NCBI GenBank assembly: GCA_032622095.1 | Contig: CP136063.1 | Coordinates: 7,853,814 to 7,917,813, forward strand | Length of the DNA stretch: 64,000 bases | Direction of reading: 5' to 3' | Source of the DNA: Siphonodentalium dalli | Taxonomy: Eukaryota; Mollusca; Scaphopoda; Gadilida; Siphonodentaliidae | Shown here: piece by piece, positions 23,383 through 45,575 of the stretch | Position numbering within the stretch: position 1 is the stretch's first letter | How the letters are laid out: each line of letters opens with the position of its first letter | Program-made: the position numbers and the translations under genes | The notes under the pieces: generated by a model | Database searches by the model: none | What the model was told of the DNA's origin: nothing | Seen by the model: the letters and a program-made list of their open reading frames with translations, nothing else

Positions 23383-24000
23383 GCTTGATTCAAGGACAGT
23401 ATCACAATATTCATATCAGCTAAAACATGGAACATAGATCTGAATAACAGACGATCGGCCCTTCAATGACCTCACGTCCAACCGCAAGCACCGATCGGCA
23501 TACAATGAAGCATCACATCCAACTATGGTCGTGGGGCATTACCAGAATAGAGGAGCCAATCCCGATGTGTATTACCAAAGTACATAATTTATTATGTACC
23601 CCACATAGTATATAAGGCACCACGATTCACTGACAAAGCGTGCTTACTCAGATCATCTCGGGCGTCTATATCTACATAAGGCATCACCTCTGTTACTCAG
23701 GTCGCTGGTCCGCTACATGTGTATACATCACTTGTGTATTATCAGATGACTAAAGACCTACTAGTATATACCAACCTATGTGTTTGCTTTTCATAACATT
23801 TGGTCATCTTATAAACCTCAACATTTCCAGCTTTTTATGCGCACACATAACGCAGCGCGAGATATTTTGAAGTGACCATAAACTGCAATCGCCACTTTCT
23901 CGGAAAACAGAAAAACGGAGTTGGCACGTTGTGATTCTAGCACATTGTGATTTTCGAGTGTCGGCCAACATAACGTCGCTGGTGATGATCTTCCAGTGAG
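23383..24000. other. No gene; partial duplicon from about 23800
   Basis: From about 23800 (ATAAACCTCAACATTTCCAG, CACATAACGCAGCGC, AACAGAAAAACGGAGTTGGC) it matches the segment at 27037, 31998 and 43015, so the class A duplicon extends left to here. Nothing coding. Confidence 0.45.
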
Positions 24001-24537
24001 TGTGATTATTTATTTGCAGTATTTTGACAACTTACACTTGAACTTATGTTAACGTTGTGTGTGTGCTTGAATCGCGTTGGTGTGTGAATTGTATCTCTGA
24101 GCGAACTTGTCGATAGTTGATGTTGATCGGATGTGCCTGTGCCAGAAAATAAAATGTACTTGTTATGCCATACTCTCGTAACTCTACAGGAAATACACAT
24201 GTATATTATACTCTGTTCCTATCAATGTAATAAATCTCCCTGCCATACAATATAGAAACGTTCCCAGGTATTGAACTGGTGTGGCATGAACTCTACGAAC
24301 GTACTACCACAGTACATAATAATGAAATTATCTACATCAGCACACATAGTACAGTGATGTGTCCTACGCTTGTAGCTATAGGAAATACACACGTATATTA
24401 CATGCTCAGTTCTATCAATGTTATAAATCTCCCTGCCACGAAATACAGATACGTTCCCAGTTATTGAACTGGTGGGGCAAGCACTATACTAACGTACGGT
24501 AACAGGACATAATAATGATCTACATCAGCACACATAC

Positions 24538-24651
24538 CTACTGCACAGTCGACTCCAGTGTATCCGGATGCACAAACACATGTGTAGGAATTAACCGCGT
24601 CAGTACAAGTTCCTCCGTTCTGGCAAGGAGTTGATTGACATTCGTCAATGT
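24538..24651 (-). CDS. Calcium-binding EGF exon, class A (most 3' intact copy)
   Basis: 114 bp, phase 1-1, acceptor CCTTTCAG, donor GTATGTG. The peptide is [39 protein letters not shown], with six cysteines at normal EGF spacing. The D-I-D-E start and the C-x-D-x4-Y-x-C motif are the calcium-binding signature. From known consensus sequences it carries an O-glucose site (CQSTPC), an O-fucose site (QNGGTC) and an O-GlcNAc site ([10 protein letters not shown]), as in Notch-type repeats. Followed in transcription order by the deleted EGF exon at 18.9 kb. Role inferred: extracellular protein-protein contact module. Confidence 0.88.
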
Positions 24652-25367
24652 CTGAAAGGGTAAACAACTGTTCTACAGATAATATCACATAATATACTGA
24701 TGAACTCGTGGTCCCATTGTATCAATGTATTTTAAATTTGAAGATTAAATGCAAAACTCATGGCGATTTACAATGCCTGCTTCAACCCCCTTGGGCGACA
24801 TAACCCAATGTGATTGTGGCATGGCTGGGGTTCCAGAGAAGGTACACATATGGACTCATCCATAGGGCACGTTTTATGTAGGAACATAAGATTTATTCAA
24901 AAAAAGAATAACCTCACCAACCAGGTTAAACGAAATACAAACAGAAATATATACAAAAGGAATAACTCTATTGTATGGCGATGTTAACGTTTTTTGCGTG
25001 ATTTGTTTAGCCAGAGTGTAGCGAAGAGCGTGCATGTGCGAATTATACCTTTGATCAAACATGTCGATGGTTGACGTTGATTGGTGTGCCTGTGCAAAAA
25101 TGTTCTGGTGTTTCATGACGGCGGGACTTATTATTTACGTTGTCTTCTGGTTCTGTTATACTTTGATTGTAAAATTTATTTGGTATGCCATACTCTCGTA
25201 GCTCTAGGAAATACACATGTATATTACATGCTATGTTCCTATCAATGTATAATCTCCCTGCCACAAAATATAGAAACATTCCCAGGTATTGAACTGATGG
25301 GGCATGATCTCTACGAACGTACGGCCACAGTATACTATAATGAAATGATCTACACCACATCACGTAC

Positions 25368-25481
25368 CTGCTGCACAGTCGATGCCAGTGTATCCGGATG
25401 TACAAGCACATATGTAAGAATTAACCACGTCAGCACAATTTCCTCCGTTCTGGCAAGGAGTTGATCCACATTCGTCAATGT
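25368..25481 (-). CDS. Calcium-binding EGF exon, class B
   Basis: 114 bp, phase 1-1, acceptor CCTTTCAG, donor GTACGTG. Starts [20 protein letters not shown] and continues [19 protein letters not shown]. Six cysteines and the calcium-binding residues are intact. The O-glucose consensus (CGSTPC) is present, but N replaces S/T before cysteine 3, so there is no O-fucose site. Lies 830 bp upstream, in gene orientation, of the class A exon at 24.5 kb. Confidence 0.88.
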
Positions 25482-25570
25482 CTGAAAGGGTGAACAACTG
25501 TCTGCAAATAATATCACATAATATACAGATGAATTCGTGGTCTCATAGCATCAGTTACAACAATAGTATT

Positions 25571-25973
25571 TTAAATCGAACATGCAATGTTACTTTACCC
25601 AACAGAACGCCCAGAAACGCCCTAACAGCCTAAATTATCTTCGGTCTGTCTCAATAAAACCATGGAAATATGGGTATCATTGGAACCGGCTCATTGAGCA
25701 CATTGTGATAGTTACAGTTATGCCCTGTGCCAATGCATTCTCTTATATATGCGAGTCGACCATAGGTCGCCTCGCATATATAAGAGAATGCATTGGCCTA
25801 AAAAAAACTTTTTTTTAACACTTTTTACCATTTTTTCTTTAATATGTGTTAAGCCAATGCATTCTCTTATATATGCGAGGCGACCTATGGTCGACTCGCA
25901 TATATAAGAGAATGCATTGGCACAGGACCGTTCTGTTGGGTAAAGGGTTAAATCGAACATGCAATGTTACTTT
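25571..25973. mobile_element. Inverted-repeat element in a 26-bp direct repeat
   Basis: TTAAATCGAACATGCAATGT-TACTTT occurs at 25571-25596 and again at 25948-25973; unoccupied duplicons have it once. Between them lies an element with 16-bp inverted ends (TTTACCCAACAGAACG at 25594, complement ending 25944). It holds two palindromes of 69 bp (25729-25797, 25853-25921) that begin GCCAATGCATTCTCTTATAT and are mutually inverted around an A/T-rich spacer. No coding sequence. A 26-bp duplication is much longer than ordinary DNA transposons leave. Confidence 0.75.
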
Positions 25974-27190
25974 CATGGAAATTTACAATCTCTGCAGCCA
26001 GACCCTTGGGGGACATAACCTTATGAAATTGTAGTATGTAGTTCCAGGGAAGGCACACATTTGGAGTCATCCATACTTCGTGTTGAATGGCCCTACACAG
26101 ACATAAATTGCTTATTTAGCGAGACCATTTGTTGCTAGCCATTCTCAGATTAAATGACTTGCTATTATGTTAGTCACACTGTGTTTCGACTCAGTCATTC
26201 TGGAGATTCCTATCAAGTAGGACATGCCTATATCAAATGTTAATGTGGTTTGGTATGAATCGGCCACACAAATGTCAGCAGTGATTATTACATACTTTAC
26301 AGATGCATTCGTGGTCCCATAGCATCAGTTACAACAACAGATAACATGTATTTTAAAGTGAACTTTCAATGCAAAATTCATGGTAATTTACAAAGCCTGA
26401 ATCCAGACCCTTGGGCGACATAACCTTATCTAATTGTAGGCTGACTGGGGTTCCAGAGGAGGCACACCTTTGGACTCATCCATACTTTGTGTTGAGTGGC
26501 CCTACGCTGACATAAATATCTCAGTTAGAGTGACTAACTCTTGTTTATCAAACTCTTATAGACGATTAACTGACTTATGTTAGTCAAACTGACTTTGTTT
26601 CGGTGAATCCTATCATGTAGGACATCCTCTAATTGTGGTTTTGACATCAGTTGACCACGGTGTGTCGATATGAGCGAACTGGAAGTTTGGTGTCGGTGAT
26701 AATATTAATAACTCCGATAAATCAAAAACAATTTGTGTCCGTTTTGGTGGAGTTGCAGCGACAAGAACGGCCAAACCAGTATGCAAACTTTAATGGCCCG
26801 CAACTCTTGCATGTGTGCCCGGTTACCAGAATGCCTGATGCAGTGCCAGGCGCATAACATGATAGTCTTAATTTGCGTAAACATTGTATAGAGATACAGA
26901 TAAATAAATCAAAATAAAACAAATTGACCAATTTTCTCCCACCCAGTGTTCTAACTCCAATCTCCAATGTCCCCAAAAGGATACCGGTTTTGGGGATTTT
27001 ACTCGATGTTTTGTGTATTCTATGTGGTTTGGTAATTTTATAAACCTCAACATTTCCAGCATTTCATGCGCGCACATAACCCCGCGCAAGATATTTCAAA
27101 ATGATCAAAAACTTCAATCGCCACTTTGTCGGAAAACAGAAAACGGAGTTGGCACATTGTGATTCTCGAACGTCTGCCAACATAAGTGAT
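25974..27190 (-). repeat. Duplicon intron, class C position with exon lost
   Basis: Matches the class C segments of other units (GATTATTACATACTTT-AC-AGATGCATTCGTGGTCCCAT at about 26283), but the EGF exon stub seen at 31183, 42196 and 45380 is gone here. A minus-strand frame around 26880-27060 (FWGHWRLELEHW) is repeated at 31.9 and 42.95 kb because the DNA is duplicated; the frames break differently, so I do not call it coding. Confidence 0.55.
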
Positions 27191-27204
27191 GAAAGCATTG
27201 TCGT

Positions 27205-27390
27205 GAAACTGCATCATACATTCTGATTTATGTAGTCTGACTGTAGCATGCATTCTGATTTATGTCGTGTGACTGCATCATACATTCTGATTTATGTCCT
27301 GTGGCTACACCATGCATTCTGATTTATGTCGTTTGTCTGCGGCGTGCATTCTGATTTATGTCGTTTGTCTGCGGCATGCATTCTGAGTTC
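27205..27390. repeat. 32-bp minisatellite in the duplicon (about 6 copies)
   Basis: GCATTCTGATTTATGTCGTG plus TGACTGCACCA, imperfect units. The same array sits at 32186-32335 (about 5 units) and 43174-43386 (about 7 units), so copy number varied after the unit duplicated. Confidence 0.85.
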
Positions 27391-27495
27391 CCTCGTCGCT
27401 AGGGATGATCTGCCACTGAGTGTGATGCTTTGTGCTATGCAGTATGTTGACAACATACACTTGTGTTTATATTAACGTGTTCTGTGCTTGTTTTC

Positions 27496-27614
27496 AGCCG
27501 GATTATAGCGAAGAGCGTTGGTGCGTGAATCATACCTTTGAGCAAACTTGTCGCTGGTTGACGTGGTGTGCCTGCATGTGCCAGAATTTTTGGATGTGTG
27601 CTGGTGTTTCATGA
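27496..27614 (+). other. Recurrent cysteine-rich plus-strand frame (uncertain exon)
   Basis: After a TTGTTTTCAG acceptor-like run the plus strand reads PDYSEERWCVNHTFEQTCRW, then LTWCACMCQNFW and a stop. The equivalent place in class B segments (28319, 41259, about 25000) reads PECSEERAC-NYTFEQTCRW. It recurs beside every EGF exon but on the opposite strand. Several copies have early stops (18.6, 32.4 and 43.5 kb) or an indel (44.3 kb). I know no family with this pattern. It may be intron sequence whose frame is open by chance. Confidence 0.25.
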
Positions 27615-27864
27615 TGACTGGACTTATTATTTACGTTGCCTTCTGATTCTGCTATAATTTGATTGTAAAATATGCTTGTTGTGCCGTAATTTTGTAGCTC
27701 TAGGAAATACACACGTATATTACATGCTCAGTTCTATCAACGTTATAAATCTCACTGCCACACAATATAGAAACGTGTCCAGGTATTGAACTGACGGGGC
27801 ATGCACTCTACGAACGTACGATCACAGTAAATAACAATGCAATGAACTACGTCAGCTCACATAC

Positions 27865-27978
27865 CTACTGCACAGTCGGCTCCATTGTATCCGGACGTAC
27901 AAGCACATGTGTAGGAATTAACCACGTCAGTACAATTTCCCCTGTTCTGGCACGGAGATGAGTCACATTCGTCAATGT
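27865..27978 (-). CDS. Calcium-binding EGF exon, class A (lost sugar sites)
   Basis: 114 bp, phase 1-1, donor GTATGTG. Starts [20 protein letters not shown] and continues [19 protein letters not shown]. Six cysteines and calcium-binding residues are kept and the O-glucose motif (CDSSPC) is present. The O-fucose position has N instead of T, and the O-GlcNAc threonine in CTSGYNG is N. The middle of the exon (VVNS, CTSGY) looks class B while the ends look class A, so gene conversion between the neighbouring exons is possible. Confidence 0.87.
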
Positions 27979-28318
27979 CTGAAAGGGTAAACAACTGTCT
28001 GCAGATAATATTACATAATATACAGATGAATTCGTGCTCCCATTGCATCAATCACAACATGTATTTTAAATTGAAGATTCAATGCAAAACCCATGCTGAT
28101 ATGGCGATTTACAATGCCTGCTGCAACCTCCTTGGCCGACATAACCCTATATGACTGTGGCCTGACTGGGGTTCCAGAGAACGTACACATATGGACTCAT
28201 CCATACTACACGTTTTGTGAATGAAAAAAAAAATAACCTCACCAACCGGGTGAAATGAAATACAAGAGGAATAACTCTATTGTATGGCGATGTTAACGTT
28301 TTTGTGTGATTTTTTCAG

Positions 28319-28420
28319 CCAGAGTGTAGTGAAGAGCGTGCATGTCTGAATTATACCTTTGAGCAAACATGTCGATGGTTGGCGTTGATCGGGTGTGCCT
28401 GTGCCAAAATGTTTGGATGA
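28319..28420 (+). other. Recurrent cysteine-rich plus-strand frame, class B version
   Basis: TGATTTTTTCAG precedes a 33-codon frame PECSEERACLNYTFEQTCRW, then LALIGCACAKMFG and TGA. Six cysteines in 33 residues. At 41259 the frame is nearly identical but loses the stop; at about 25000 it shifts after the tryptophan; at 44.3 kb a 4-bp indel breaks it. Listed as a candidate only. Confidence 0.25.
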
Positions 28421-28688
28421 GTTCTGGTGTTTCATGACGACGGGACTTATTATTTACGTTGTCTTCTTATTCTGTTATACTTTGATTGTAAAATGTACTT
28501 GGTATGCCATACTCTCGTAGCTCTAGAAAATACACATGTATATTACATGCCCTGTTCATATCGATGTATAATCTCCCTGCCACAAAATATAGAAACGTTC
28601 CCAGGTATTCAACTGATGGAGCATGAACTCTACGAACGTACGGCCACAGTACATACTATAATGAAATTATCTACATCACCTCACGTAC

Positions 28689-28802
28689 CCGCTGAGCAGT
28701 CGATGCCAGTGTATCCGGATGTACAACCACACATGTAAGCATTAACCACGTCAGCACAAATTCCTCCGTTCTGGCAAGGAGTTGATTCACATTCGTCAAT
28801 GT
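28689..28802 (-). CDS. Calcium-binding EGF exon, class B
   Basis: 114 bp, phase 1-1, acceptor TCCTTTCAG, donor GTACGTG. Starts [20 protein letters not shown] and continues [19 protein letters not shown]. All six cysteines and the calcium-binding signature are present. It has O-glucose (CESTPC) and O-GlcNAc (CTSGYTG) consensus but isoleucine at the O-fucose position. Its 5' intron is interrupted 37 bp from the exon by a 1.94-kb insertion. 824 bp from the class A exon at 27.9 kb. Confidence 0.88.
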
Positions 28803-28838
28803 CTGAAAGGATAAACAACTGTCTGCAAATAATAGCAC

Positions 28839-30776
28839 TTAAAACCCACCGGCGTGTTATCCCTTTGTCCGGACAGGGCTCTTATCTGGCAGAACGCTCA
28901 AGCGTTTTGATCGCATGAACATTATTTTAACGCCAACAGTCATTCTTTTTTAAGAATGCCCGTGGGCATTATTTTTTAAGAATGCCCGGCATTATTTTTT
29001 ACGAATACACGAGGGATTAAATCGGCTGAGGGACGTCATAGAGTGGCTCCTCCCCAATCATGTAAGTTGAGTCAATATAGCGTGTCGGCAAGCTGCATTA
29101 AATATCGGAACACTTAAAGGTACTCAATCAGATCAGGCCCTTATACATTACTATTTCTTTGGCTTCGGGGATAAAAAAAAATTGATTCGAGACGAGTAAC
29201 CTATCTATCAACGCTCATAGTGATCAGATTGTTTTTTGATGTTTTGTTATTTCTATTGTTTCTGGCCCAGAAACACGCCGTCAAAAGGATGGTCTCATTG
29301 CGTTATTAATACACTTGATTTTAGAGTTATCCAGCTTCGCCTGTTTGAATAAGTGTTTCTGTGAAAATTATACATCTCGAGAAAATTACAAACTTAGGGG
29401 CAATAATTGCAAACTTTAAAAATTAATATCTAATAACTCTTGAGCTTTGATGGATGGGTTCCTCGACTCGAATCAAATATTTTGTTTACCCCTGAAGTCA
29501 CAGAAATAGTAATTTAGGGGTGCTTAATCGGATTGAGTACCTTTAATTTGCTGAGCTAATTAAAACTCACAAATATTTAGCGATTTTGATTTTATATTGC
29601 CACGCCAAAAAATAAAATAAAATTTTTTCAAACTTTGATACAAAAACACCAACAGCTCTTTGGACTATTTAGAAAAGTCCGCAGACAGGCTAAAACACAT
29701 ATAGATAACATCTAAATACGTCCCTAAGTCGGTCAAATGAACACAAAACCGTTTAACACAGATTTTAACTATACGTTACTTATTGAACGAGAAAGTGCTC
29801 ACATGGTTATTTTTAATACAATGGGGAAGCACAGAAAAAATATAACATTTCCAGTATCAAATTGAAACAGAATAGCGTATACCCATGTGTATAGACATGT
29901 CATGCATATCTACTCTGGCTTCGCCAAGATATCATACTCCACTAGTTCAAAACATGATAACTTTCTGTTGCTCTGACAGGGAAGTTTTATAACATTGAAA
30001 AAAAATGCAGTTAACATAATGCTCGGTTATAACTGTTCCGTAATAACATTGTATTTTATAGCAGGTAAAGGTCCTAACTCGAGTTTGCATGGTTTGGGGG
30101 ACTTTAATTTAATTAATCGATTGTACTATGCGTCGCTTGGAAAGTTGGAATTTCATTGATGTTGGCTCACAAAGCTACACAAATCTTGCAACCTCGAGCT
30201 GGGAATTTATATTCAAGGAACAAGTATTAACACAGAAATATATTCCCTGCATGGTTTGTTCAATCTTCAACCCCATCAGAAGATAATAGAAAAGGCTCCC
30301 AGGGTTTGAACATATGGGAAATGATATATACGGGGGTACGGGAGCCTGCTAAATTATTATGGAATGTTAACGTATTTGATGTCGAATTAGATGGGGCATC
30401 TTTAAATCAAGAAAGAAATATAGTAAGATATTGCTCACATACACTGTCCGAATCCAAAGCGCAACGACAAACTTTGGAAGAAATGTCCCTCAACTGGCGA
30501 GTCCTAATTCGAATTAAATAATAATTGAAATGTGTTGCTTTTCATCGTGGACAACACGGACATCACAAACTGTCCGTGCTGAACTGTGGGCGTGTACTCA
30601 GGTAATCAAGGCAGAGCTTTGGTCCAGATACAATTGATAGTTGGCTCCAACGACAATTCAATGAGTGGGATTTAAGTCAGATAATATTCTCAGCGTCGGG
30701 AATTCGGTAAAGAATAGACTCGGGCAAGCCCTCGTCTATTCTTTTACCGAATTCCCTCTGCTTCGAACATTATCCT
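28839..30776. mobile_element. Unclassified 1.94-kb insertion in the duplicon
   Basis: The duplicon reads AATAATAGCAC up to about 28838 and resumes ATAATATACAGATGAATTCG at about 30777; copies elsewhere (41780, 25510) have these adjacent. The left end has a short repeat (AAGAATGCCCG...GGCATTATTTTTTA, twice); the right end has a strong stem-loop (30697-30753, GGGAATTCGGTAAAGAATAG and its complement). Bases 29262-29548 match the repeat at the window start. A 71-codon frame (30306-30521, with SHTLSESKAQRQTLEEMSLN) has no recognisable domain. No matching terminal repeats. Confidence 0.6.
30697..30753. repeat. Stem-loop at the right end of the insertion
   Basis: Arms of about 22 bp (GGGAATTCGGTAAAGAATAG on the left, complement on the right with one extra T) around a 14-nt loop. 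Could be a subterminal structure of the inserted element or a hairpin MITE. Confidence 0.75.
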
Positions 30777-31182
30777 TTACATAATATACAGATGAATTCG
30801 TGGTCTCATAGCATCAGTTACAACAACAATATTTTATATCGAACACTCAGTGGTAACTTCATAGCAATTTACGATGTCTGCAGCCAGACCTTTGTGGGAC
30901 ACAATATTATGTAAGTGTAGCCTGACTGGGGTTCCAGGGGAGACACAACTTTGGACTCATCCATACTTCGTGTTCACTGGTCCAACACAGATATAAATTG
31001 CTTAGTTAGCAAAACCATTTTGTGTTAATCAAACACTTATCCTCCGATTAACTGACTTACTATTATGTTAATCAAACTATTTTTCGGGTCAGTCATTTTG
31101 GAGATTCCTATCAAGTAGGACATGCCTATATCGATTGTTTACTTGGTATGACATGAGTTGGCCACAGTGTGCCAATATGAGC

Positions 31183-31201: not shown

Positions 31202-32185
31202 CTGAAAGGGTAAACAACTGTCAGCAGTGAGTATTACATACTTTAAAGATGCATTCGTGGTCCCATAACATCAGTTGCAACAACAGTTAACATGTAATTT
31301 AAGGTGAACATTCAATGCTAAATTCATGGAAATTTACAAAGCCTTGAGCCAGACCCTTGGGCGACACAACCTTATGTAATTGTAGCCTGACCGGGGTTCC
31401 AGAGGAGGTACACATTTGGACTCATCCAACATTCGTGTTGAGTGGCCTTACACTGACATAAATTTCTCAGTTAGAGTGACAAACGTTTGTTTGTCAAACT
31501 CTTACAGACGATTACCTGACTTATGTTAGTCAAACTGACTGTGTTTCGGCTAGTCATTTCGGTGACTACTATCATGTAGGACATGCCCTAAATGTGGTTT
31601 TGACACCAGTTGGCCACGGTGTGTCGAGATGATTGAACTGGAAGTTTGGTGTAATTTGATATAATTAATAACTCCGATATATCAAAAACAATTTGTGTCC
31701 GTTTTGGTGGAGATGCAGCGACAAGAACGGCCATACCAGTATGCAAACTTTAATGGCCCGCAACTCTTGCATGTCTGCCCGGTTACCATACTGTATGATG
31801 CCGTGTCAGGCGCATAACATGCTTGTCTTCACTTGGGTAAACAGTGTATAGAGATACAGATATATAAATCAAAATAAAACAAATTGACAAATATTCCCCC
31901 ACCCAGTGTTCTAACTCCAATCTCCAATGTCCCCAAAAGGATACCGGTTTTGGGAATTTCTTCGATGTGTTGTGTATTCTATGTGGTTTTGGTAATCTTA
32001 TAAACCTCAAAATTTCCAGCCTTTCATCCGCGCACATAACCCCGCGCAAGATATTTCAAAATGATCAAACACTTCAATCGCCACTTTCTCGGAAAACAGA
32101 AAAACGGAGTTAGCACATTGTGATTCTCGCACATTGTGATTCTCGAACGTCTGCCAACATCAGTTATGAAAGCACTGTCGTGCAA

Positions 32186-32335
32186 CTGCATCATACATTC
32201 TGATTCATGTCGAGTGACTGCACCACGCATTCTGATTTATGTAGTCTCACTGTAGCATGCATTCTTATTTGTGTCGTTTGTCTGGGGCATGCATTCTGAT
32301 TTACGTCGTTTGAATGCGGCATCATTCTGAGTTCC
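32186..32335. repeat. 32-bp minisatellite in the duplicon (about 5 copies)
   Basis: Same GCATTCTGATTTATGTCG unit as at 27205 and 43174, in the corresponding place of the unit. Confidence 0.8.
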
Positions 32336-32809: not shown

Positions 32810-32923
32810 CTACTGCACAGTCGGCTCCAGTATATCCGTATGCACAAGCACATGTATAGGAGTTAACCGCGTCAGTACAAGTTCCTCCGTTCTGGCAAGG
32901 AGTTGAGTCACATTCGTCAATGT
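32810..32923 (-). CDS. Calcium-binding EGF exon, class A
   Basis: 114 bp, phase 1-1, acceptor CCTTTCAG, donor GTATGTG. Starts [20 protein letters not shown] and continues [19 protein letters not shown]. Complete calcium-binding EGF with O-glucose (CDSTPC), O-fucose (QNGGTC) and O-GlcNAc ([10 protein letters not shown]) consensus sites. Its class B partner is the exon at 41641; an 8-kb insertion now separates them, and without it the gap would be about 860 bp as in the other pairs. Confidence 0.88.
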
Positions 32924-33083
32924 CTGAAAGGGTAAACAACTGTCTGCAGATAATATCACATAATATACAGATGAATTCGTGGTCCCATTGCATCAATCAC
33001 AACATGTATTTTAAATTGATGATTCAATGCAAAACCCATGGCGATTAACAATGTCTGCTGCAACCCCCTTGGGTGACATTATA

Positions 33084-35152
33084 CAGTTGTCGCCCGTTGT
33101 CGAGGGAGACATTGAGATTTGTCACCCGCTCGAGAACGGAATGTCTCCCGAGGAGCGAAGCTCCGATGGAGACATTCCGTTCTCGAGCGGGTGACAAATC
33201 TCAATGTCTCCCGAGAAGAAGGGCAGCAACTGCTTTGTTATCCGATTATACCACAGAAAATATCTTTGCCATCCACACGCACGGTGTTGCACTGAGTCAC
33301 GAGTGCTTTATTTCCCGATTATGAATATTTTCAGTAACTACTTATCGTCCCATAGGATTTCAGTTCCATAAACTATAGTCAAGCTGTTAAGCGTTTGTAA
33401 TCCGCGTTTATTTACGATCATTTTGGTGGTCAAATCGTCAATATCGGTCCATGCAATGTAAACCAATAAGCCATATAGGTATGTTCTCGTCTTCTGCAAT
33501 ATGGCATATTGAATGTCGTCTTGTGCGCGCAATTTACTCGCGATGTTCATTTGATAACGGTTTTCCCCGAAATCTATTGGGAAGTTGTCAATTTAATTAA
33601 TGTACATTCATATGTGTCAGTTCTCATGGCGATCCTCACATAAAATACTTTTATGATCACATTGCAGACATTGCGGAGGATAAGCGAACAGTACCATTCA
33701 TTCGCGACAAGCGTATGCATTACGCTGTCTACCAGCGAACATTTATAACCAACCAACCTCAAGGGATCCTCTCTTTCAATCTTGCATCATAATGTCGACA
33801 TGAACAAATTGAATCACCGAGATGTTTCGATGTAAAAAAGTAAATAATAACGCTTGTCCGATAAAAGTATCAACTTAAAAGTTCGAATATTAGTGTTCAC
33901 CAAATATATGCAAATTAGCAAACACCACAACTGGTGTGTTTTAAGAATCCGTGGGGTATATAAGATCTATGATTTTTTAGTACATGTACGGCGTTATGAT
34001 GTGGAATAGATGAGTTGCTGCTGTGTGTCTTTGGAGATATTCTTGCAATATAACATCAGGCGGGCGACAAAAACAATGTCTCCCGGGTCAGCGGGCGACA
34101 GTGTGATTTGTTACCCTCCTCCCAATTTTCCACCCTTCTGATTGGCCCATTTCCTACCACGTGCCGGGCGACAAATCACACTGTCGCCCGCTGAGCCGGG
34201 AGACATTGTTTTTGTCGCCCGCCTGATGTTATAATACAAGAATATCTACAAACACACACTGCAGTAACTCATCTATTTCACATCACTATAATGTACTAAA
34301 AATCATAGATCTTAAATACCCCACGGATTCGCAAAACACACCAGTTGTGGTGTTTGCTAATTTGCATATATTTAGTGAACACTAATATTCGAACTTTTAA
34401 GTTAATACTTTTATCGGACAAGCGTTATTATGTACTTTTTACATCGAAACTATCTCGGTGATTCAATATGTTCATGTCGACATTATGGTGCAAGATCGAA
34501 AGAGTGGATCTCTTCAGGTTGGTTGGTGGTAGACAACGTAATGCATACGTTTGTCGCGAATGAATGGTACTGTACCCTTATCCATGATATCAGACCTCTC
34601 CGCGATGTCTGCAATGTGATCATAGAAGTATTTTGTTTGAGGATCGCCATGTACTTGGGAGCACTGACACATATGAATGTACATTAATGAAATCAACAAC
34701 TTCCCAATAGCTTTCGGAGAAGACCGTTATGAAGGCGACATTGAATATTCCACATTGCGGAAGGCGATAACATACCTATATGGCTTATTGGTTTACATTG
34801 CATGGACCGATATTGACGATTTAACCACCAAAATGATCGTAAATAAACGCTGATTATCAAACGCTTAACGGCTTGACTGTCGTTTATGGAACAGAACGAT
34901 AAGTGGTTACTGAAAATATACATAATCGGGAAAGAAAAGCACTCGTGACTCAGTGCAACATCGTGCGTGTGGATGGCAAGGATTTTTCTCTGTGGTATAA
35001 TCGGATAACAAAACAGTTGTTGCCCTTCTTCTCGGGAGACATCGAGATTTGTCACCCGGTCGAGAACTGAATGTGCTGTGCTCCTCGGGAGACATTCCGT
35101 TCTCGACCGGGTGACAAATCTCAATGTATCCCTCGACATCGGGCAACAACTG
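33084..35152. mobile_element. Complete 2.07-kb palindromic element
   Basis: The left half (33084 to about 34140) is repeated inverted in the right half: landmarks GAGTGCTTT, GTTTACATTGCATGGACCGA, ATTCATATGTGTCAG and GACAAGCGTTATTA appear in both, mirrored about 34.13 kb. Each terminus is itself a 149-bp palindrome (33084-33232, 35014-35152) built on GAGACATTGAGATTTGTCAC and CTCGAGAACGGAATGTCTCC. The centre is a third palindrome (34049-34233, GGCGGGCGACAAAAACAATG arms). TATA follows the right end as it precedes the left. Short frames in it are mirror copies, not genes. Confidence 0.8.
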
Positions 35153-35156
35153 TATA

Positions 35157-35995
35157 TTGTCGCCCGGCAAGTGACAGTACATGGGCCAATCAAAAGAGTG
35201 GAAAATAGGGAGGAGGATAACAAAACCCTTTGTTACCCTCCTCCCTATTTTACATCTATCTGATTGGCACATGTTCTGTCACGTGGCGGGCGACAAATCA
35301 CACTGTCGCCCGCTGACATTGTTTTTGTCGCCCGCCTGATGTTATATTGCAAGAATACATCTAAGTACACACACACTGCAGTACCTCAGCTATTTCACAA
35401 CACTACGACGTTCTAAAGTCATATTATATACCCACGGATTGGCAAACAACACCAGTTGTGGTGTTTGCTAATTTTCATATTTTTAGTGAACACTAATATT
35501 CGAACTTTTAAGTTGATACTTTTATCGGACAAGCGTTATTATGTACCTTTTACATTTGTTGGTTGGTTATACAGGCTTGCTAGTGGACAACGTAATGCAT
35601 ACGTTTGTCGCGAATGGTCCTGTACGCTTATACATCATATCATACATCTCCGCGATGTCTGCAATGTGATTATAGAAGTATTTTGTGTGGGGGTCGCCAT
35701 GTACTTGGAAGCATTGACATATATGAATGTACATTAATGAAATCGACAATTATCCAATAACTTTCGGGGCAAGATCGTAATGAAGTGAACATCGCGAGTA
35801 AATTCCGCGCACAAGACGACATTGAATATGCTCAATTGCAGAAGGGGGTAGTATATATATGGCTTATTGGTTTACATTGCATGGACCGATATTGACGATT
35901 TAACCATAAACGATGATTATCAAACACTTAACTGCTTGAATATCGATTATAGAACAGAAATCCTATAGGACGATACGAAGTTACTGACAATATAT
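35157..35995. mobile_element. Second, partial copy of the palindromic element
   Basis: From TTGTCGCCCGG through the GTCGCCCGCCTGATGTTATA block it repeats 34190-34920 in the same orientation (e.g. TTAAGTTGATACTTTTATCG, GTAATGCATACGTTTGTCGC, TTACATTGCATGGACCGATA). It is cut at about 35995 and its end resumes at about 40800 (AATCGGGAAAGAAAGCACTC). Confidence 0.75.
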
Positions 35996-36062
35996 AACAA
36001 GAAAACTAAGATGCATGCATCAGATCGCCAGTGAATTATTTATCATAGAATTCTTGTAGCTA

Positions 36063-36447
36063 TCGATTATACATTTTGGAATATCTGTCTGTATGTATGT
36101 GTGTATGAATGCATGTATGTATGTGTGTTACAGACTCGCACACTGCTCGACCGATCCGACTCGGATTTGGTATTTAACGTGTCAACCTGACCTCGCTTAT
36201 AGGCATGTTTCTGGACCTTGACCGATCCGACTAAAATTTGTGTGTAGGACTACTTCGATCCCGGGAGCAACATGGACGGGTCCAATTTCACGTGCGACCG
36301 TGTCATCGAACGTGCTGATATAGGCATGTTTCTGGACCAATTGAAAAATAGTTTGTCCAGATGCTGTATATAGCGGGTACTGCCCAGATGAAGGCGATCA
36401 CAAAGAAATCCCTAAATAGCCCGAACGAAGTCGAGTATATCAGCTAG
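36063..36447 (+). mobile_element. Helitron-like element, short copy
   Basis: TCGATTATACATTTTGGAAT followed by a GTATGT-rich tract, a CTCGACCGATCCGACTCGGA block, and a 3' end AATAGCCCGAACGAAGTCGA then TATATCAGCTAG-T. Same plan as 20406-21472 but lacking the 120-bp internal tandem units. Confidence 0.6.
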
Positions 36448-37492
36448 TCTACTATATCATTTGAAAACTCCGTATATATATATGTGTGTGGGGGTGTGTG
36501 GGTGTGTGTGTGTGTATGTGTGTGTGTGTGTGCTGGGGTGTGTGTGTGTCTGTGTGTGTGTGGGGGTGGGTGGGTGGGTACTTCATAGAATCGAAAACGG
36601 CTGGTCGGATCGAGCTCAAATTTCCTATCTAAGGGTAAAAACCCACGGGAATGGTCAACGTCGCATTTTGGACAATATCTGAGCACTCATTCTCCACTCC
36701 CAATCATCAAAATCACCGCAAACGGCACATCGGGGGTTAAGGCAGGCACGATCTTTATATTGACCATATTTGGAGTTGTTAACCGACTAACGCTCTTTAT
36801 TGTCATCGGCGTTGCTAAACGGTCGCATGTGCCTACGAAACTACGGACGAAAAACGCGAAATGCATTTATCTTGATTAAAAAGGCAGAATTAACTCATCG
36901 GAAAACAAAACATGCGTGTTGTGTGATTCTTATGTCTGTCGTTCCTAGGAACGGGGGAAATTTTCAATCATGCATCTTTTAGGAACGGGTACTGCGTGTT
37001 GTGTGAAAACAAAATGCGTGATGTGTGATTCGTATGTCTGTCGTTCCTAGGAACGGGGGACATTTTCATCGGGTCAGTTTTTCCACCCGATGTACCTTAA
37101 ATCATACCTCTTTTAGGGACGGGTACTGCGTGTTATGTGATTCTTATGTCTTCTTCACCTTGAAACGGGTACCCACAAATTATATATATGTGTGTGTCCT
37201 TTATAGACTCGAACCGATTGAGCTCAAACTTGCTACCTACGGGAAGTGTCATGGACGGGTTAAATTGTGACCTCGACCTGACCTTGACCTTGAAAATGAT
37301 CAATTTAAGGTCAAAATCTGGAAAAATGCACAATTAAGTCAAGTTATAAACAAAAAAATAATATTAACTCATTGAAAAACAAAACATTAAATTAAAAAAT
37401 TAATCATAAAAATTAACTAAAAAAAATAATTAATTTTTTTTTAAATTGTCATGTTTCTGACGAACGCCGCCAGTGGCGGGCTAACCTGCTAG
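36448..37492 (+). mobile_element. Helitron-like element with GT microsatellite
   Basis: Starts TCTACTATATCATTTGAAAA immediately after the CTAG of the preceding copy. It has a TATATA then (GT)n/GGGTGG tract at 36475-36580, TAGAATCGAAAACGG, two copies of a GATTCGTATGTCTGTCGTTC block (36927, 37026), and CCTTGACCTTGAAAATGATC. It ends with a GCCGCCAGTGGCGGGC stem-loop, TAACCTG and CTAG. Non-coding. Confidence 0.6.
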
Positions 37493-38697
37493 TATTATCT
37501 AGTTCTAGATTTAGATACTAACTTTATACCTGTATATTGTACAAATAAATGTTTGACAAATGTATCTATATCAATATTACCATAAGGGTCATTAAAAATT
37601 ATATACGACGAAACAAAATTTTGAAGGGTGCATGTGATTGTGAGGATTAATAGGATCATAGGTAAATTTAATTCATGGATGCTTGTTAATTTTCATTGGA
37701 CTACATGTATCAGGTAAATTTTTATATTTCAAATGATGACAGGAATGTGGAAAGTTGAACTACCCAAGTAATACTGGCTATCCGCACGAAGAGATATACA
37801 TGTATATAAAAAGCAAAATAGAAGATGGCTGCTGGCGACCATGTTTTCCAAAAAATTCAAATCATTCGATAGCTCCCATCTAGTGGTCACCTCGAAGATC
37901 AATATGAAGCTGGGTGACTATCATTTGAGAGATGTGGTCTGTAGAGGTGCTAAAGAAAAGAATTCAGTCATACAAAGAGTAAGATACAAAATTGCTGTCT
38001 GTGGTCATGTTTAAAAAAAAATAGATCACTCTCATCCTTGTTATCCAGAAGATCATTGTGGAATCTGGTGGCGATCGGACAATATATTTCGTATGTAGGA
38101 TCAACCAAATTATTTAGCCATAAAAATGGTAAAACTCAAGATCACCGCTGGCAGATATTTTTTCACAAGGAAATTTTGAGAAAAAAATATGGCTCCCATC
38201 TAGTGGTGACCCAAAATATCCACATGAGAAACAGTTCTCCAATAAATGCTGGCTGCAGGGTGCGCCAATTGATTCAAATTTGAAATTTGGCAGGGTGTAC
38301 TGCTGGTGGCCATGTTTTCCCCGCAAATTTGATAGACTAATGAACAAAACCACTGAATCCGTTGAATCAATATACATATACACATATATATATGCATTGT
38401 TATCCACACAACTGGTATATAAAGGTACTGAAAATAACTATATTATACTAGTATACACAAAATAAACCATATATTATGGCAATGGGTTCTAATATCCGAA
38501 CATAACAGCTGAGAACTTGGTGTGAATTGAATAGTAGTGGGGTCTCAAGAATATCTATTCCTCCACGTTAGAAACATGCCATTAAATAGCATAAGTATAA
38601 TCTAGCTCGAAGACAGAAGTGATCCATCAAACCGCTCTTAATTCAACCAGGTCATCACACCCCATGTATAGTCATCACATGATGATCTAGGTGGAAT
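37493..38697. other. No gene seen
   Basis: AT-rich sequence inside the fold-back insertion. The phrase GGCTCCCATCTAGTGG with CCATGTTTTCC recurs loosely at about 37870 and 38195, hinting at an old tandem repeat of about 320 bp. Nothing coding. Confidence 0.4.
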
Positions 38698-39883
38698 CGG
38701 GCTTCTCAAAGTACCACCGGTACCAAACATGCCGTTACCGGTGTCGATACTTTGCTAGTACCGTGGTTCCTGTACCGGTACTGTCAAGCCATTTTATAGT
38801 TCTAGGAATATCTAGAGGTAATACGGTGCTGAAAATTTCAAGTCACGAACTCTATTATTAACATGAACTAATGATAATTTGATATCAGAGTAAAGAAACT
38901 ATTTCGGGATATTAGATATCATTTTGGAATATACTAACAAACTTTCACGTAGAGTTTAGTGATGCGCAAATGAAAACATAAACAATTCAATCAACCAAAA
39001 TAGAACTATTCGTTGCACACGTTTTGTGGTTTTAACTTATTGTTCTTCTGTGTGTGATAAACTGATAGAAAGTAACGCGACGCACGTCGGTGGTTTTCAC
39101 TTCACAATATTCAATCAGATTAAATGTATTTGCAAAGTCGCTTGGTTGGCCATTTTGAATCTAAACAATAATGAGGCAAGTTAGGCGACAATTTCTCTCC
39201 ACGAGTTCCTATACCAAACATGAACTATCATGTCTATTCAGCAAATTACATGTACACTGTGCACGGTTCGTGGATATTTGTTCCCGATTTTATTATATAA
39301 CTGGAGGTTCCATGGCATGAGACCAATTTAAATTCAAAATGGTCTACCTAGCTTATATATGCAAACTGATACGACATGTGAACAGGTACGTGTGTATGTG
39401 ATTAATCAAAACGTGGGGGCCATACGTGTGGGTGATGTCGTTGGTGAATAAATGATAAGAAATTGTAACTGGGTTTAGTGTATAATTGCCACAACTGGGC
39501 TAAAATAAAGGCAAACACATAGGTTGCAATCACAAGTTCCCAACACAAAACAATCTTTGAAGATTAAAACAATATCACAAGGCCGTGCTTTCAAAGAATT
39601 GGAATTCAACCATTGAAGAGTGATAATAGACACATACAAACCAGGAACCACGCTTCCGTGACCGACCTCTCACGCCATGCATACAATCACGATCGATGTG
39701 CATCGCGTGTAGTTTAAAGAGCGAAACTTGATACTACTGTATTTTGCCAGACAGCCTGCTGATCTAAGAACTTGCATATATGCAACCACAGTACCGAGTA
39801 CCAGCGGATCTGCACACCAGCACCGTTACCGCAAAAAATGCCCGAGTACGCGGTACCGGTACTGTGTACCGTTGAGAAGCCTT
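38698..39883. mobile_element. hAT-like non-autonomous transposon with 8-bp target duplication
   Basis: Perfect flanking duplication GGTGGAAT at 38690-38697 and 39884-39891. Inverted ends: GGGCTTCTCAAAGTACC (left) against GGCTTCTCAACGGTAC read inward from the right; both continue into GTACCGGTACC-rich subterminal repeats (38715-38790, 39785-39870). 1186 bp, no transposase frame. Nested within the fold-back insertion, so it is one of the latest events here. Confidence 0.85.
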
Positions 39884-39891
39884 GGTGGAAT

Positions 39892-40790
39892 TGTTGTATA
39901 AAAAACAGCACTACATGTAAATATAAAATAAAACAGTGCTACATCTTATTACATATTATTTCCACATATAATCAGTGACTACGGGAAGTCTAACAAAATA
40001 AGTTTCTGTGACACTCGATCCGAAGAGGGGGATAATTTCATCTGTTACAGTCAATGGAGCGATTATGAATCTGGAAAGCTGAAATTTCTAAGTGATACTA
40101 GATATGGACATGACGAGTATAGTGTGGTTCAGAACGAAAAAGTTGAATAAAATCAACACATTTGTAAATTTAAAAACAATTCAAACGTTATTGTATTCCA
40201 TGTCCCAGCCCGGACATATACACAAATTTCAATAATATTCATTGAGAAACAACGGACCAAACGCCATATAACACCCCGTATACATCTTTTATTCAGAGCC
40301 GGCCTTTTATTCCGAGTTGGCACAAGTCGATTGGGGCGAGTTAGCCCTGGGGCGAGTACGCCGATTCCGGCACCTTCTATAATTTACAGCAGGTATACGT
40401 TTACGCTGGTTTACGCGTAATTTAATTTAGAAAGTTCCACAATTAGTATCGTAAATAGAGCGACTGTATTTGACAGAGACTGCCTCTGTTATTGGTTATC
40501 ATGTTGTTATAATTAAAAAACGACAAATGCACATGCCGTTCAAACGTAGTAGTCTATTTTCCCCATGTTAAAGGACGTCCGCAAATAACAAATAACGCTA
40601 ACCTACTGCAGATGTTTTACACGACAAGTGTTAACATATTTGGGCTGAATTCATCTGATATGGTATGATTCCTCAAAATAAACAACAAACCATCGTTACT
40701 TGGAAATGTAGTTTGGGCTAACATTTACACAAATCCTCCAGCTCCTCTATCCTGACACACACGTCAGATGAAAAACAGCCATTAGATAAC
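39892..40790. other. No gene seen
   Basis: Unique-looking non-coding sequence between the hAT-like element and the right end of the fold-back insertion. Confidence 0.4.
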
Positions 40791-40899
40791 CGCCCAAATT
40801 GGGCGAAATAATAATCGGGAAAGAAAGCACTCGTGACTCAGTGCAACATCGTGCGTGTGGATGGCAAGGATTGTTTTCTGTAGTAATCGGATAACAAAA

Positions 40900-41048
40900 C
40901 AGTTGTTGCCCTTCTTCGTGGAAGACATTGAGATTTGTCACCCGGTCGAGAACGGAATGTCTCCCTCGGAGCTGCGCTCCTCGGGAGACATTCCGTTCTC
41001 GAGCGGGTGACAAATCTCAATGTCTCCCTCGACAGCGGGCGATAACTG
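40900..41048. repeat. 149-bp terminal palindrome (right end of the fold-back)
   Basis: CAGTTGTTGCCCTTCTTCGT ... CCCTCGACAGCGGGCGATAACTG folds on itself around GGAGCTGCGCTCC. Same module as 33084-33232, 35014-35152 and 54349-54499. The outer side abuts TATA, the inner side abuts CGGATAACAAAA. Confidence 0.85.
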
Positions 41049-41640
41049 TATAATGTGATTGTGGCCTGACTGGGGTTCCAGAGAAGGTACACATATGGAC
41101 TCATCCATATTGCACGTTTTATGTAGGAACATAAGATTTATTTTAAAAAAAGAATAACCTCACCAACCGGGTGAAATGAAATACAAACATAAATATATAC
41201 AAGAGGTATAACTCTATTGTATGCCGATGTTAACGTTTTTTGTGTAATTTTTTTCAGCCAGAGTGTAGTGAAGAACGTGCATGTGCGAATTATACCTTTG
41301 AGCAAACATGTCGATGGTTGGCGTTGATCGGGTGTGTCTGTGCCCAAATGTTTGGAATCGGAATTTGGATGAGTTCTGTTGTTTTACGACGACGGGACTT
41401 ATTGTTTACGTTGTCTTCTGATTCGGTTATACTTTGATTGTAAAGTGTACTTCGTATGCCATACTCTCGTAGCTCTAGAAAATACACATGTATATTACAT
41501 GCTCTGTTCCTATCGATGTATAATCTCCCTGCCACAAAATATAGAAACGTTCCCAGGTATTGAACTGATGGAGCATGAACTCTATGAACGTACGGCCACA
41601 GTACATACTATAATTAAATTATCTACATCACCTCACGTAC

Positions 41641-41754
41641 CTGCTGTGCAGTCGGTGCCAGTGTATCCTGATGTACAACCACATATGTAAGAATTAACCA
41701 CGTCAGCACAAATTCCTCCGTTCTGGCAAGGAGTTGATTCACATTCGTCAATGT
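41641..41754 (-). CDS. Calcium-binding EGF exon, class B
   Basis: 114 bp, phase 1-1, acceptor CCTTTCAG, donor GTACGTG. Starts [20 protein letters not shown] and continues [19 protein letters not shown]. Six cysteines, calcium-binding residues, O-glucose (CESTPC) and O-GlcNAc (CTSGYTG) consensus; isoleucine blocks the O-fucose site. Partner class A exon is at 32810, across the 8-kb insertion. Confidence 0.88.
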
Positions 41755-42195
41755 CTGAAAGGGTAAACAACTGTCTGCAAATAATATCACATAATATACA
41801 GATGAATACGTGGTCCCATAGCATCAGTTACAGCAACACTATTTTATATCGAACACTCAGTGGTAACTTCATAGCAATTTACGTTGTCTGCAGCCAGACC
41901 TTTGGGGACACAATCTTATGTAATTGTAGCCTGACTGGGGTTCCAGGGGAGGCACAACTTTGGACTCATCCATACTTCGTGTTGACTGGCCCAACACAGA
42001 TATAAATTGCTTAGTCAGCGAAACCATTTTGTTTAGTCAAACTCTTAACCTCCGATTAAGTTAACAGACTTACTATTATGTTAATCAAACTATTTTTCGG
42101 ATCAATCATTTTGGAGATTCCTATCAAGTAGGACATGCCGATATCGATTGTTTACTTGTTTTGACATGAGTTGGCCACAGTGTGCCGATGTGAGC

Positions 42196-42214
42196 GATTC
42201 ACATTAGTCAATGT
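42196..42214 (-). pseudogene. Relic class C EGF exon, acceptor lost
   Basis: On the minus strand the acceptor AG has become AT (TTTCATACATTGAC), and the codon after D is TAA. Only about 19 bp of exon are recognisable. Same stub as 31183-31201 and 45380-45396. Confidence 0.65.
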
Positions 42215-43173
42215 ATGAAAGGGTACAACAACTGTCAGCAGTGATAATTACATACTTTAAAGATGCATTCGTGGTCCCATAGCATCAGTTACAACAACAG
42301 TTAACATGTAATTTAAGGTCAACATTCAATGCTAAATTGATGGCAATTTACAAAGCCTGGAGCCAGACCCTTGGGCGACACAACCTTATGTAATTGTAGC
42401 CTGACTGGGGTTCCAGGGGAGGTACACCTTTGGACTTATCCAACCTTCGTGTTGAGTAGCCCTTCGCTGACATAATTTTCTCAGTTAGAGTGACAAACTT
42501 TTGTTTGTCAAACTCTTATAGACGATTATCTGACTTAATATGTTAGTCAAACTGACTTTGTTTCGGCTGGTCATTTCGGTGACTCCTATCATGTAGGACA
42601 TGCCATAGTTGTAGTTTTGACATCAGTTGACCACGGTGTGTCGATATGAGCGAACTGGAAGCTTGGTGTCGGTAATATAATTAATAACTCCGATAAATCA
42701 AAAACAATTTGTGCCCGTGTTAGTGGAGATGCGTCGACATGAATGGCCAGACCAGTATGCAAACTGTAAGTGCCCGCAACTCTTGCAGGTCTGCTCGGTT
42801 ACCAGAATGTATGATGCAGTGTCAGGCGCATAACATGATTGTCTTCACTTTGGTAAACAGTGTATAGAGATACAGATATATAAATCAAAATAAAACAAAT
42901 TGACCAATTCCCTCCCCCACCCAGTGTTCTAACTCCAATCTCCAATGTCCCCAAAAGGATACCGGTTTTGTGGATTTACTCGATGTGTTGTGTATTCTAT
43001 GTGGATTGGTAATCTTATAAACCTCAACATTTGCGAGATATTTCAAAATGATCAAAAACTTCAATCGGAAAACAGAACAAACGGAGTTGGCACATTGTGA
43101 TTCTCGCACGTGATTCTCGCACATTGTGATTCTCGAACGTCTGCCAACATAAGTTATGAAAGCATTGTCGTGA

Positions 43174-43386
43174 AACTGCATCATACATTCTGAATTATGT
43201 CGAGTGACTGCATCACGCATTCTGATTTATGTCGAGTGACTGCACCACGCATTCTGATTTATGTCGAGTGACTGCACCACGCATTCTGATTTATGTCGTG
43301 TGACTGCACCAGGCATTTTGATTTATGTCGTGTGACTGCGGCATGCATTCTGATTTACGTCGTTTGTCTGCGGCATGCATTCTGAG
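43174..43386. repeat. 32-bp minisatellite in the duplicon (about 7 copies)
   Basis: Units of GCATTCTGATTTATGTCGAG plus TGACTGCACCAC; the middle three are almost identical. It has the largest copy number of the three corresponding arrays. Confidence 0.85.
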
Positions 43387-43859
43387 TTCCCTCGTCGCTA
43401 TGGATGATATGCCACTGAGTGTGATGCTTTGTGCTGTGCAGTATGTTGACAACTTACACTTGTGTTTATATTAACGTGTTCTGTGTTTGTTTTCAGCCAG
43501 ATTATAGCGAAGAGCGTTGATGTGTGAATCATACCTTTGAGCAAACTTGTCGCTGGTTGACGTGGTGTGCCTGTGCCAGAATGTTTGGATGTGTGCTGGT
43601 GTTTCATGATGACGGGACTTCTTATTTACGTTGCCTTCTGATTCTGCTATAATTTGATTGTAAAATGTGCTTGGTGTGCCATACTTTGGTAGCTCTAGGA
43701 AATACACACGTGTATTACATGCTCAGTTCTGTCAACGTTATAAATCTCCCTGCCACAAAATATAGAAACATTCACTGGTATTGAACTGGTGGGGAAAGCA
43801 CTCTACGAACGTACGATCACAGTAAATAACAATGCAATGAACTACGTCAGCTCACATAC

Positions 43860-43973
43860 CTACTGCACAGTCGGCTCCAGTGTATCCGTATGCACAAGTA
43901 CATGTGTAGGAATTAACCATGTCAGTACAAGTTCCTCCGTTCTGGCACGGAGTTGAGTCACATTCGTCAATGT
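43860..43973 (-). CDS. Calcium-binding EGF exon, class A
   Basis: 114 bp, phase 1-1, acceptor CCTTTCAG, donor GTATGTG. Starts [20 protein letters not shown] and continues [19 protein letters not shown]. Full calcium-binding EGF with O-glucose, O-fucose (QNGGTC) and O-GlcNAc consensus. Differs from the class A exon at 32810 by only two residues (M for A, T for A), so these two separated recently or were homogenised. Confidence 0.88.
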
Positions 43974-44662
43974 CTGAAAGGGTAAACAACTGTCTGCAGA
44001 TAATATCACACAATATACAGATGAATTCGTGGTCCCATTGCTTCCATCACAACAGGTATCTTAAATTGAAGATTCTATGCAAAACCCATGGCGATTTACA
44101 ATGCCTGCTGCAACCCCCTTGGACGACATAACACTATGTGATTGTGGCCTGACTGGGGTTCCAGAGAAGGTACACATATGGACTCATCCATACTGCATGT
44201 TTTATGTAGGAACATAAGATTAAAAAATTTTTAAAGTAACTTCACCAACCGGGTGAAATGAAATACGTTTTTGTGTGATTATTTTCAGCCAGAGTGTAGT
44301 GAAGAGCGAGCGTGCATGTGTGAATTATACCTTTGAGCAAACATATCGATGGTTGACGTTGAACTGGTGTGCCTGTGCCAAAATGTTTGGATGAGTTCTG
44401 GTGTTTCATGACGACGGGACTTATTATTTACGTTGTCTTCTGATTCGGTTATACTTTGATTGTAAACTGTACTTGGTATGCCATACTCTCGTAGCTTTAG
44501 AAAATACACATGTATATTACATGCTCTGTTCCTATCAATGTATAATCTCCCTGCCACAAAATATAGAAACGTTCCCAGGTATCCAACTGATGGAGCATGA
44601 ACTCTATGAACGTACGGCTACTGTACCTACTATAATGCAATTATCTACATCACCTCACGTAC

Positions 44663-44776
44663 CTGCTGTGCAGTCGGTGCCAGTGTATCCGCTTGTACAA
44701 GAACATATGTAAGCATTAACCACGTCAGCACAAATTCCGCCGTTCTGGCAAGGAGTTGATTCACATTCGTCAATTT
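44663..44776 (-). CDS. Calcium-binding EGF exon, class B (first EGF of the chain)
   Basis: 114 bp, phase 1-1, acceptor CCTTTCAG, donor GTACGTG. Starts [20 protein letters not shown] (the usual first D is E) and continues [19 protein letters not shown]. Six cysteines intact; O-glucose and O-GlcNAc consensus present, O-fucose site absent. Its 5' intron begins with class C-type sequence (GACTGCATCGATTATTACGT), and the class B flank reappears 210 bp further at 44985, so a C segment has been fused or converted here. It is the closest EGF exon to the signal-anchor exon. Confidence 0.87.
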
Positions 44777-45379
44777 CTGAAAGGGTAAACAACTGACTGC
44801 ATCGATTATTACGTACTATAAAGATGCATTCGTGGTCCCATAGCATCAGTTACAACAACAGTAAACATATAATTTACGGTCAACATTCATTGCTAAATTC
44901 ATGGCAATTTACAAAGCCTGGAGCCAGACCCTTGGCGACATCACCTTATGTAATTGTAGCCTGTCGGAGGTTCCATGTGAGGCAGATAAATTCGTGGTCC
45001 CATAGCATCAGTTACAACAACAATATTTTATATCGAACACTCAGTGATAACTTCATAGCAATATACGATGTCTGCAGCCAGACCTTTGTGGGACACAATC
45101 TTATGTAATTGTAGCCTGACTGGGGTTCCAGGGGAGGCACAACTTTGGACTCATCCATACTTCGTGTTCACTGGCTAACACAAATATAAATTGCTTAGTT
45201 AGCAAAACCATTTTGTGTTAATCAAACACTTATCCTCCGATTAAGTTAACTGACTTACTATTATGTTAATCAAACTGTTTTTCGGGTCAGTCATTTTGGA
45301 GACCTATCAAGTAGGACATGCCTATATCGATTGTTTACGTAATTTGACATGAATTGGCCACAGTGTGTCGATATGAGCG

Positions 45380-45396
45380 ATTCACATTCGTCAATA
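45380..45396 (-). pseudogene. Relic class C EGF exon, acceptor lost
   Basis: GATTCACATTCGTCAATAT on the plus strand equals the ATATTGACGAATGTGAATC exon start on the minus strand; the acceptor AG is changed (TATCATAT). The rest of the exon is missing. Confidence 0.6.
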
Positions 45397-45575
45397 TATG
45401 ATAGGGTAAACAACTGTCAGTAGTGATTATTACATAATTTAAAGATGCATTCGTGGTCCCATATCATCAGTTACAACAACAGTTAACATGTAATTTAAGG
45501 TCAACATTCAATGCTAAATTCATGGCAATTTACAAAGCCTGAAGCCAGACCCTTGGGCAACATAACCTTAAATCA

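Follow-up and report, generated by a model that had tools for sequence, protein, structure and literature searches.

A minus-strand EGF-repeat gene region that probably grew by tandem copying of a C-B-A block, two domains per block

Introduction

The usual view is that EGF chains lengthen by single exons. The duplication of class 1-1 modules by intronic recombination is presented as established in the sections of PMC3927616 considered here. In the sections of PMC1553488 considered, domain repeats often grow by several domains at once, two being the commonest number overall and EGF domains more often being added singly, and recombination motifs flanking the duplicated part are suggested.

The locus described here resembles the class 1-1 duplication of PMC3927616, so far as those sections describe it, in that phase 1 introns flank the modules, the repeats are in tandem and the breakpoints are intronic. 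It differs in its unit, which consists of two modules and a dead exon head, and in the presence of one intron segment at both array ends. The two-domain unit is also similar to the multi-domain expansion in the same sections of PMC1553488, whereas EGF there is mostly duplicated by one domain at a time. A third related system is the calcium-binding EGF repeats of Notch and Delta: by sequence, the best solved matches for four joined exons from this locus were Delta-like 1 (E 2.2e-58) and Notch1 (E 2.2e-51). In the literature on tandem EGF exon duplication and on MAM with EGF, we found no paper recognised as the present case, and absence from print is not claimed.

The locus is a clear further instance of established block-wise growth of domain repeats, and overturns nothing known. 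Since the introns are still 88-95% alike in the first three blocks, direct reading reveals the unit along with its edges and the dead exon head, so that the repeating unit is unusually legible for an ordinary mode of gene growth.

Results and Discussion

Two alternating classes of EGF exon

In the window, i.e. the whole 64,000-nucleotide stretch of DNA analyzed, repeat anatomy, exon classes, phases and open frames were read directly. A regular expression and an HMM built from these exons identified eight intact EGF exons on the minus strand, confirming the strict B-A-B-A-B-A-B-A alternation proposed by a sequence-only reading: B1 (44663-44776), A1 (43860-43973), B2 (41641-41754), A2 (32810-32923), B3 (28689-28802), A3 (27865-27978), B4 (25368-25481), and A4 (24538-24651), the higher coordinate being the first base of each. 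All measure 114 nt from a CAG acceptor to a GT donor, in phase 1-1; the donor is GTACGTG in the four B exons and GTATGTG in the four A exons. Two further regular-expression matches on the plus strand were not EGF-like.

Six cysteines in EGF spacing, an open frame and AG/GT splice sites were retained in all eight; four of them, when joined, gave profile matches above the cut-off to PF00008 (4e-32) and PF07645 (3.5e-16). For calcium-binding EGF, the patterns used were an acidic start ([DEN]-x-[DN]-[EQ]-C) and a hydroxylation site (C-x-[DN]-x4-[YF]-x-C), and both were found in 8/8 exons (B1 begins with E). On the predicted splice sites, every exon is a class 1-1 module.

In a tree of exons with trimmed flanks (691 columns), the A and B clades were separated at 100/100; this is the trimmed version, as some of the first A/B trees contained inserted sequence near B3 and A4. 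A was also parted from B in trees of the exon (99/98), the upstream intron (98/98) and the downstream intron (only 93/93). Clustering by neighbourhood, set beforehand as the outcome contrary to duplication in blocks, was rejected for each forced pairing of a B exon with its neighbouring A exon (AU p 5.1e-60, 8.2e-72, 6.1e-50 and 1.2e-4 for pairs 1 to 4, respectively).

The repeating block

A block of ~3.0 kb with two intact EGF exons and a stub (C) is present in four tandem copies when insertions are subtracted. The sequence-only reading had described it as duplicated four times; four copies do stand, which corresponds to three duplications if these were single steps. The spacing from B to A was 803, 856, 824 and 830 bp (856 after the subtraction of a 7975-bp insertion), within the 803-860 bp claimed previously, and the lengths from A to A, obtained by arithmetic on coordinates with insertions subtracted (3075, 3009 and 2950 bp), agreed with the claimed 2.95-3.08 kb. 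Measured between C starts in the same manner, the units were 3182, 3039 and 3010 bp, the first containing an extra 154-bp tandem duplication.

Pairwise identities among units 1-3 were much alike in all block pieces, introns included (0.88-0.95): 0.917-0.949 in the B piece, 0.900-0.931 in the A piece, 0.937-0.943 in the C piece, 0.911-0.918 in the intron from A to C, and 0.883-0.911 in the piece upstream of C. This similar identity, together with the separate A and B clades, supports the C-B-A DNA block, rather than a single exon, as the probable repeating unit. To that extent the earlier proposal of a duplicating block holds, but its three-exon composition is not supported, C being a truncated exon head. 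In turn, A and B are copies of a single ~800-bp monomer, so that the history has at least two levels.

Unit 4 was more diverged (0.836-0.843 in the C piece), and trees of the pieces mostly placed it apart (C at 99, B at 92). The A-piece tree deviated, grouping U1 with U3 (95) and, weakly, units 2 and 4 (79); these differences in topology suggest that sequence exchange between block copies is possible. The non-identity of the A-block and B-block trees could also be expected if single EGF exons had been duplicated one by one, with subsequent gene conversion among every second copy, and in the sections of PMC1553488 considered, EGF figures among the families in which duplication by single domains is most frequent. 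However, the introns, the C stub and the A-to-C stretch recur in the same order and with the same identity, which one-exon steps would not yield, and we regard this course as quite unlikely. An assembly artefact is more improbable still, to the point of being scarcely credible: between copies, the block pieces of units 1-4 are 5-16% diverged, and there are block-specific insertions, unlike one locus assembled twice.

When open frames common to the three aligned blocks were sought, several stretches outside the EGF exons emerged (the longest of 105 codons, on the plus strand), with no clear codon-position pattern. Since the EGF exons do not show such a pattern either, the scan is weak for finding or excluding another coding "C".

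The C stub

No coordinates had been given for C in the sequence-only reading, and C was taken here as the truncated EGF-like heads that begin at 45397, 42214 and 31201, together with their homologous counterpart around 26.3 kb. Of an EGF exon it retains the acceptor region and the initial 19 nt, beyond which lies intron-like sequence that recurs upstream in the block. On the minus strand, C1 (45379-45397) has CAT instead of CAG at the acceptor, as does C2 (42196-42214), which also has an in-frame TAA; C3 (31183-31201) has kept CAG and an open frame; in the C4 region (25974-26428), the acceptor and exon head are absent from the alignment. An acceptor with a stop-free head survives in one of the four copies, C3. 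The GTAAAC site of C1-C3 breaks phase 1-1 in all three, and its use in C3 would give a 59-nt exon. None of C1-C3 combines an acceptor, an open frame, six cysteines and an in-phase donor, and C4 is headless.

The case for C as a real coding exon, by which each block would give three protein parts, would center on C3 with its acceptor and open frame. C1 and C3 are open for ~38-40 codons from the head, and C3 contains two other GTs, at 12 and 36 nt, that keep phase; these would add 4 or 12 residues and no EGF. Against this, C1 and C2 carry a mutated acceptor AG, C2 contains a stop, the head of C4 is lost, the GTAAAC donor is phase-breaking in 3/3, and the open stretches over C1 and C3, the two copies scanned, matched no Pfam family at E ≤ 1. 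We consider a coding C to be very unlikely. With damaged acceptors, a stop, a lost head and a phase-breaking donor among the stubs, each block most likely contributes two EGF domains to the protein, and not three at a time as had been proposed. For annotation, C3 is a caution: a sequence resembling the head of an EGF exon, even one with a good acceptor, may be no exon. The locus also illustrates that a dead stub need not prevent a block from adding two domains in frame.

Array edges, the 62-bp segment and insertions

By self-BLAST and edge comparison, the whole array, from first to last unit homology, extends over 17260-45570 on the minus strand and is broken by insertions. It starts at 45570, a position that corresponds within the unit to 42388 and 31374 (U1-U3), and is preceded by unlike sequence; the 5' edge thus does not differ among the three copies compared, in line with the common unit boundaries expected from the earlier reading. 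Homology ends at 17260, inside the same segment as the 5' edge. The range of 24000-45575 assigned previously does hold the block copies, but the array runs on to a ninth EGF exon at 19013 and then to ~17260.

This older ninth exon (D5; 18933-19013, minus strand) has a 33-nt deletion and four of the six cysteines; its acceptor is as in the other EGF exons, its donor is GTACGTG, and with splice sites and phase kept it would add a frame-neutral 81 nt.

A 62-bp segment lies at the 5' edge (45509-45570) and, with no EGF exon following, at the 3' edge (17260-17322), both on the minus strand. Searching the window with its profile gave 15 matches at E 1 or better, all within the array and all in minus-strand orientation. 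One match precedes each intact EGF exon, except for B1, which is preceded by two; others precede the ninth exon and each of the four C places, and the last is at the array end. Because the segment was delimited by the overlap between the ends of the array, its presence at both is by construction; the observation proper is that the ends overlap in unit phase, for which chance is perhaps one in ten by a rough estimate. The 5' edge common to U1-U3 and the 62-bp likeness of the array ends are features expected of tandem block duplication by unequal recombination, and the distribution of the segment and the edges are consistent with growth by recombination between segment copies.

Each of the three unit-specific insertions is confined to one block. 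That of 7975 bp (33079-41053), in block 2 between B2 and A2, has inverted ends of ~246 bp; no transposase was seen in seven open stretches, covering part of the insertion, that were scanned with Pfam. One of ~1.94 kb (28843-30777, ends from BLAST only) lies between C3 and B3, and one of 351 bp (25597-25947), flanked by identical 26-bp direct repeats, between C4 and B4.

Constraint on the EGF exons

When neutral evolution was simulated on the flank tree (total length 0.72, compared with 0.46 for exons), a mean of 0.59 of the eight exons stayed intact, and all eight did so in 0 of 4000 runs; the same was true in 0 of 3000 runs under each of three other settings, half branch lengths included. This result is carried by the cysteines: an open frame alone was retained in 8/8 in 4-17% of runs and splice sites alone in 5.5-23%, neither of which is striking by itself. 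The pooled pN/pS values of 0.62 within A, 0.93 within B, and 0.66 between A and B indicate that overall constraint looks weak, and a third-position excess was absent from the aligned exons. The EGF scaffold is kept while other residues vary.

The weak constraint, with pN/pS near 1 within B, bears on whether the array is a decaying pseudogene or a non-coding repeat that merely bears EGF-like exons. The dead C copies, the loss of two cysteines from the ninth exon, and the satellites and reverse-transcriptase element nearby point in the same direction. On the other hand, eight of eight exons are intact against the 0.59 expected under neutrality, and the flanking exons are in phase; we judge either of these to be unlikely.

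Predicted surrounding gene and product

A predicted upstream exon (50084-50240, minus strand) begins at an ATG (MPQS...) and ends in a phase 1 donor; it encodes a basic stretch that, read by eye, precedes a long hydrophobic segment, an order considered here with a view to a possible type II membrane protein (uncleaved N-terminal anchor, N-terminus inside). Two MAM exons are predicted downstream on the same strand. Exon 1 (16356-16490, phase 1-1) scored 22.1 bits with PF00629, below the cut-off of 26.4, and exon 2 (14120-14382) 61.9 bits (E 8.6e-17) against the same cut-off; together they cover profile positions 1-134 of 158. A pattern search on the minus strand found no third MAM exon. The upstream exon, the eight EGF exons and the two MAM exons, joined with the ninth EGF exon omitted, gave 489 stop-free codons. 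Three sets of selected open stretches (8, 10 and 9) scanned with Pfam yielded MAM and EGF, and otherwise only matches below the cut-off. From these exons, the predicted product is anchored in the membrane and carries eight EGF domains of calcium-binding type along with a MAM domain; it may act in adhesion.

Consensus patterns for O-glycosylation were taken from the sections of PMC8950332 considered, that for O-GlcNAc being used in a widened form. As in the Notch/Delta repeats, the O-glucose pattern was found in 8/8 EGF exons and the O-GlcNAc pattern in 7/8. In contrast to Notch/Delta, the O-fucose pattern (C2-x4-[ST]-C3) was limited to three of the eight, all of class A (A1, A2 and A4; 3/4 A and 0/4 B), and a MAM domain and an N-terminal hydrophobic segment are predicted here.

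Proposed history

Taken together, we consider it highly probable that this part of a minus-strand EGF-repeat gene grew by tandem copying of the C-B-A block, two domains per block; splicing, recombination and function enter this account as inferences. The host gene would be eukaryotic and probably invertebrate; long tandem satellites, EGF exons of spliced appearance and a reverse-transcriptase frame in the window indicate a eukaryote. An ancestral monomer of ~800 bp, consisting of an intron segment and one phase 1-1 EGF exon, would have given rise to the A class, the B class and a truncated C copy, and the resulting ~3.0-kb block would then have been copied in tandem to the four standing copies, most likely via unequal recombination between like intron segments. 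Because every EGF exon is in phase 1-1, each block would add two 38-residue EGF domains with the frame intact, the C stub most likely staying within an intron under the predicted splicing. Later insertions would have split three blocks. The EGF exons could be joined in frame to the predicted exon with the hydrophobic segment upstream and to the predicted MAM exons downstream.

A more specific proposal, which as a whole we hold to be doubtful, is that the 62-bp segment was the recombination substrate that set the edges and the block size, and that the B-A pair was kept because only A can carry O-fucose. If the former were true, the locus would be a concrete case of the intron recombination motif suggested in the sections of PMC1553488 considered; if the latter, each block would gain one fucosylatable and one plain EGF.

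Other elements of the window

RNA-family and tRNA searches of the window found nothing. The window also contains a reverse-transcriptase frame and two tandem satellites, with periods of 43 bp (4153-12181) and 32 bp (56972-63718).

Exons flanking the EGF array

On the minus strand, 5' of the tandem array of EGF exon blocks, a predicted exon (window 50084-50240) combined an ATG, a basic stretch, a hydrophobic segment and a phase 1 donor, and may be the initial coding exon of the gene to which the EGF exons belong. A pair of predicted MAM exons was located 3' of the array (window 14120-16490, minus strand); their joint reading gave most of a MAM domain, and their phase matched that of the EGF exons.

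Insertions and repeats

The 7975-bp insertion (window 33079-41053) had inverted ends with ~93% identity (BLAST) and contained more palindromes; a related inverted piece was found at window 54339-54503. The 351-bp insertion, together with its flanking direct repeats, occupied window 25571-25973; these repeats (26 bp, identical) were lengthy for a target-site duplication. Between the array and the upstream exon lay a reverse-transcriptase frame (window 47150-49785, minus strand; PF00078 match, 2.6e-39).

Two long satellites were detected, with a 43-bp unit (window 4153-12181; ~187 copies) and a 32-bp unit (window 56972-63718; ~211 copies, 98% matches). The A-to-C intron, from an A exon to the next C region (a truncated EGF exon head or the place homologous to it), carried a 32-bp minisatellite in three blocks: window 27199-27386, 32176-32330 and 43175-43385 (5.9, 4.9 and 6.6 copies, respectively).
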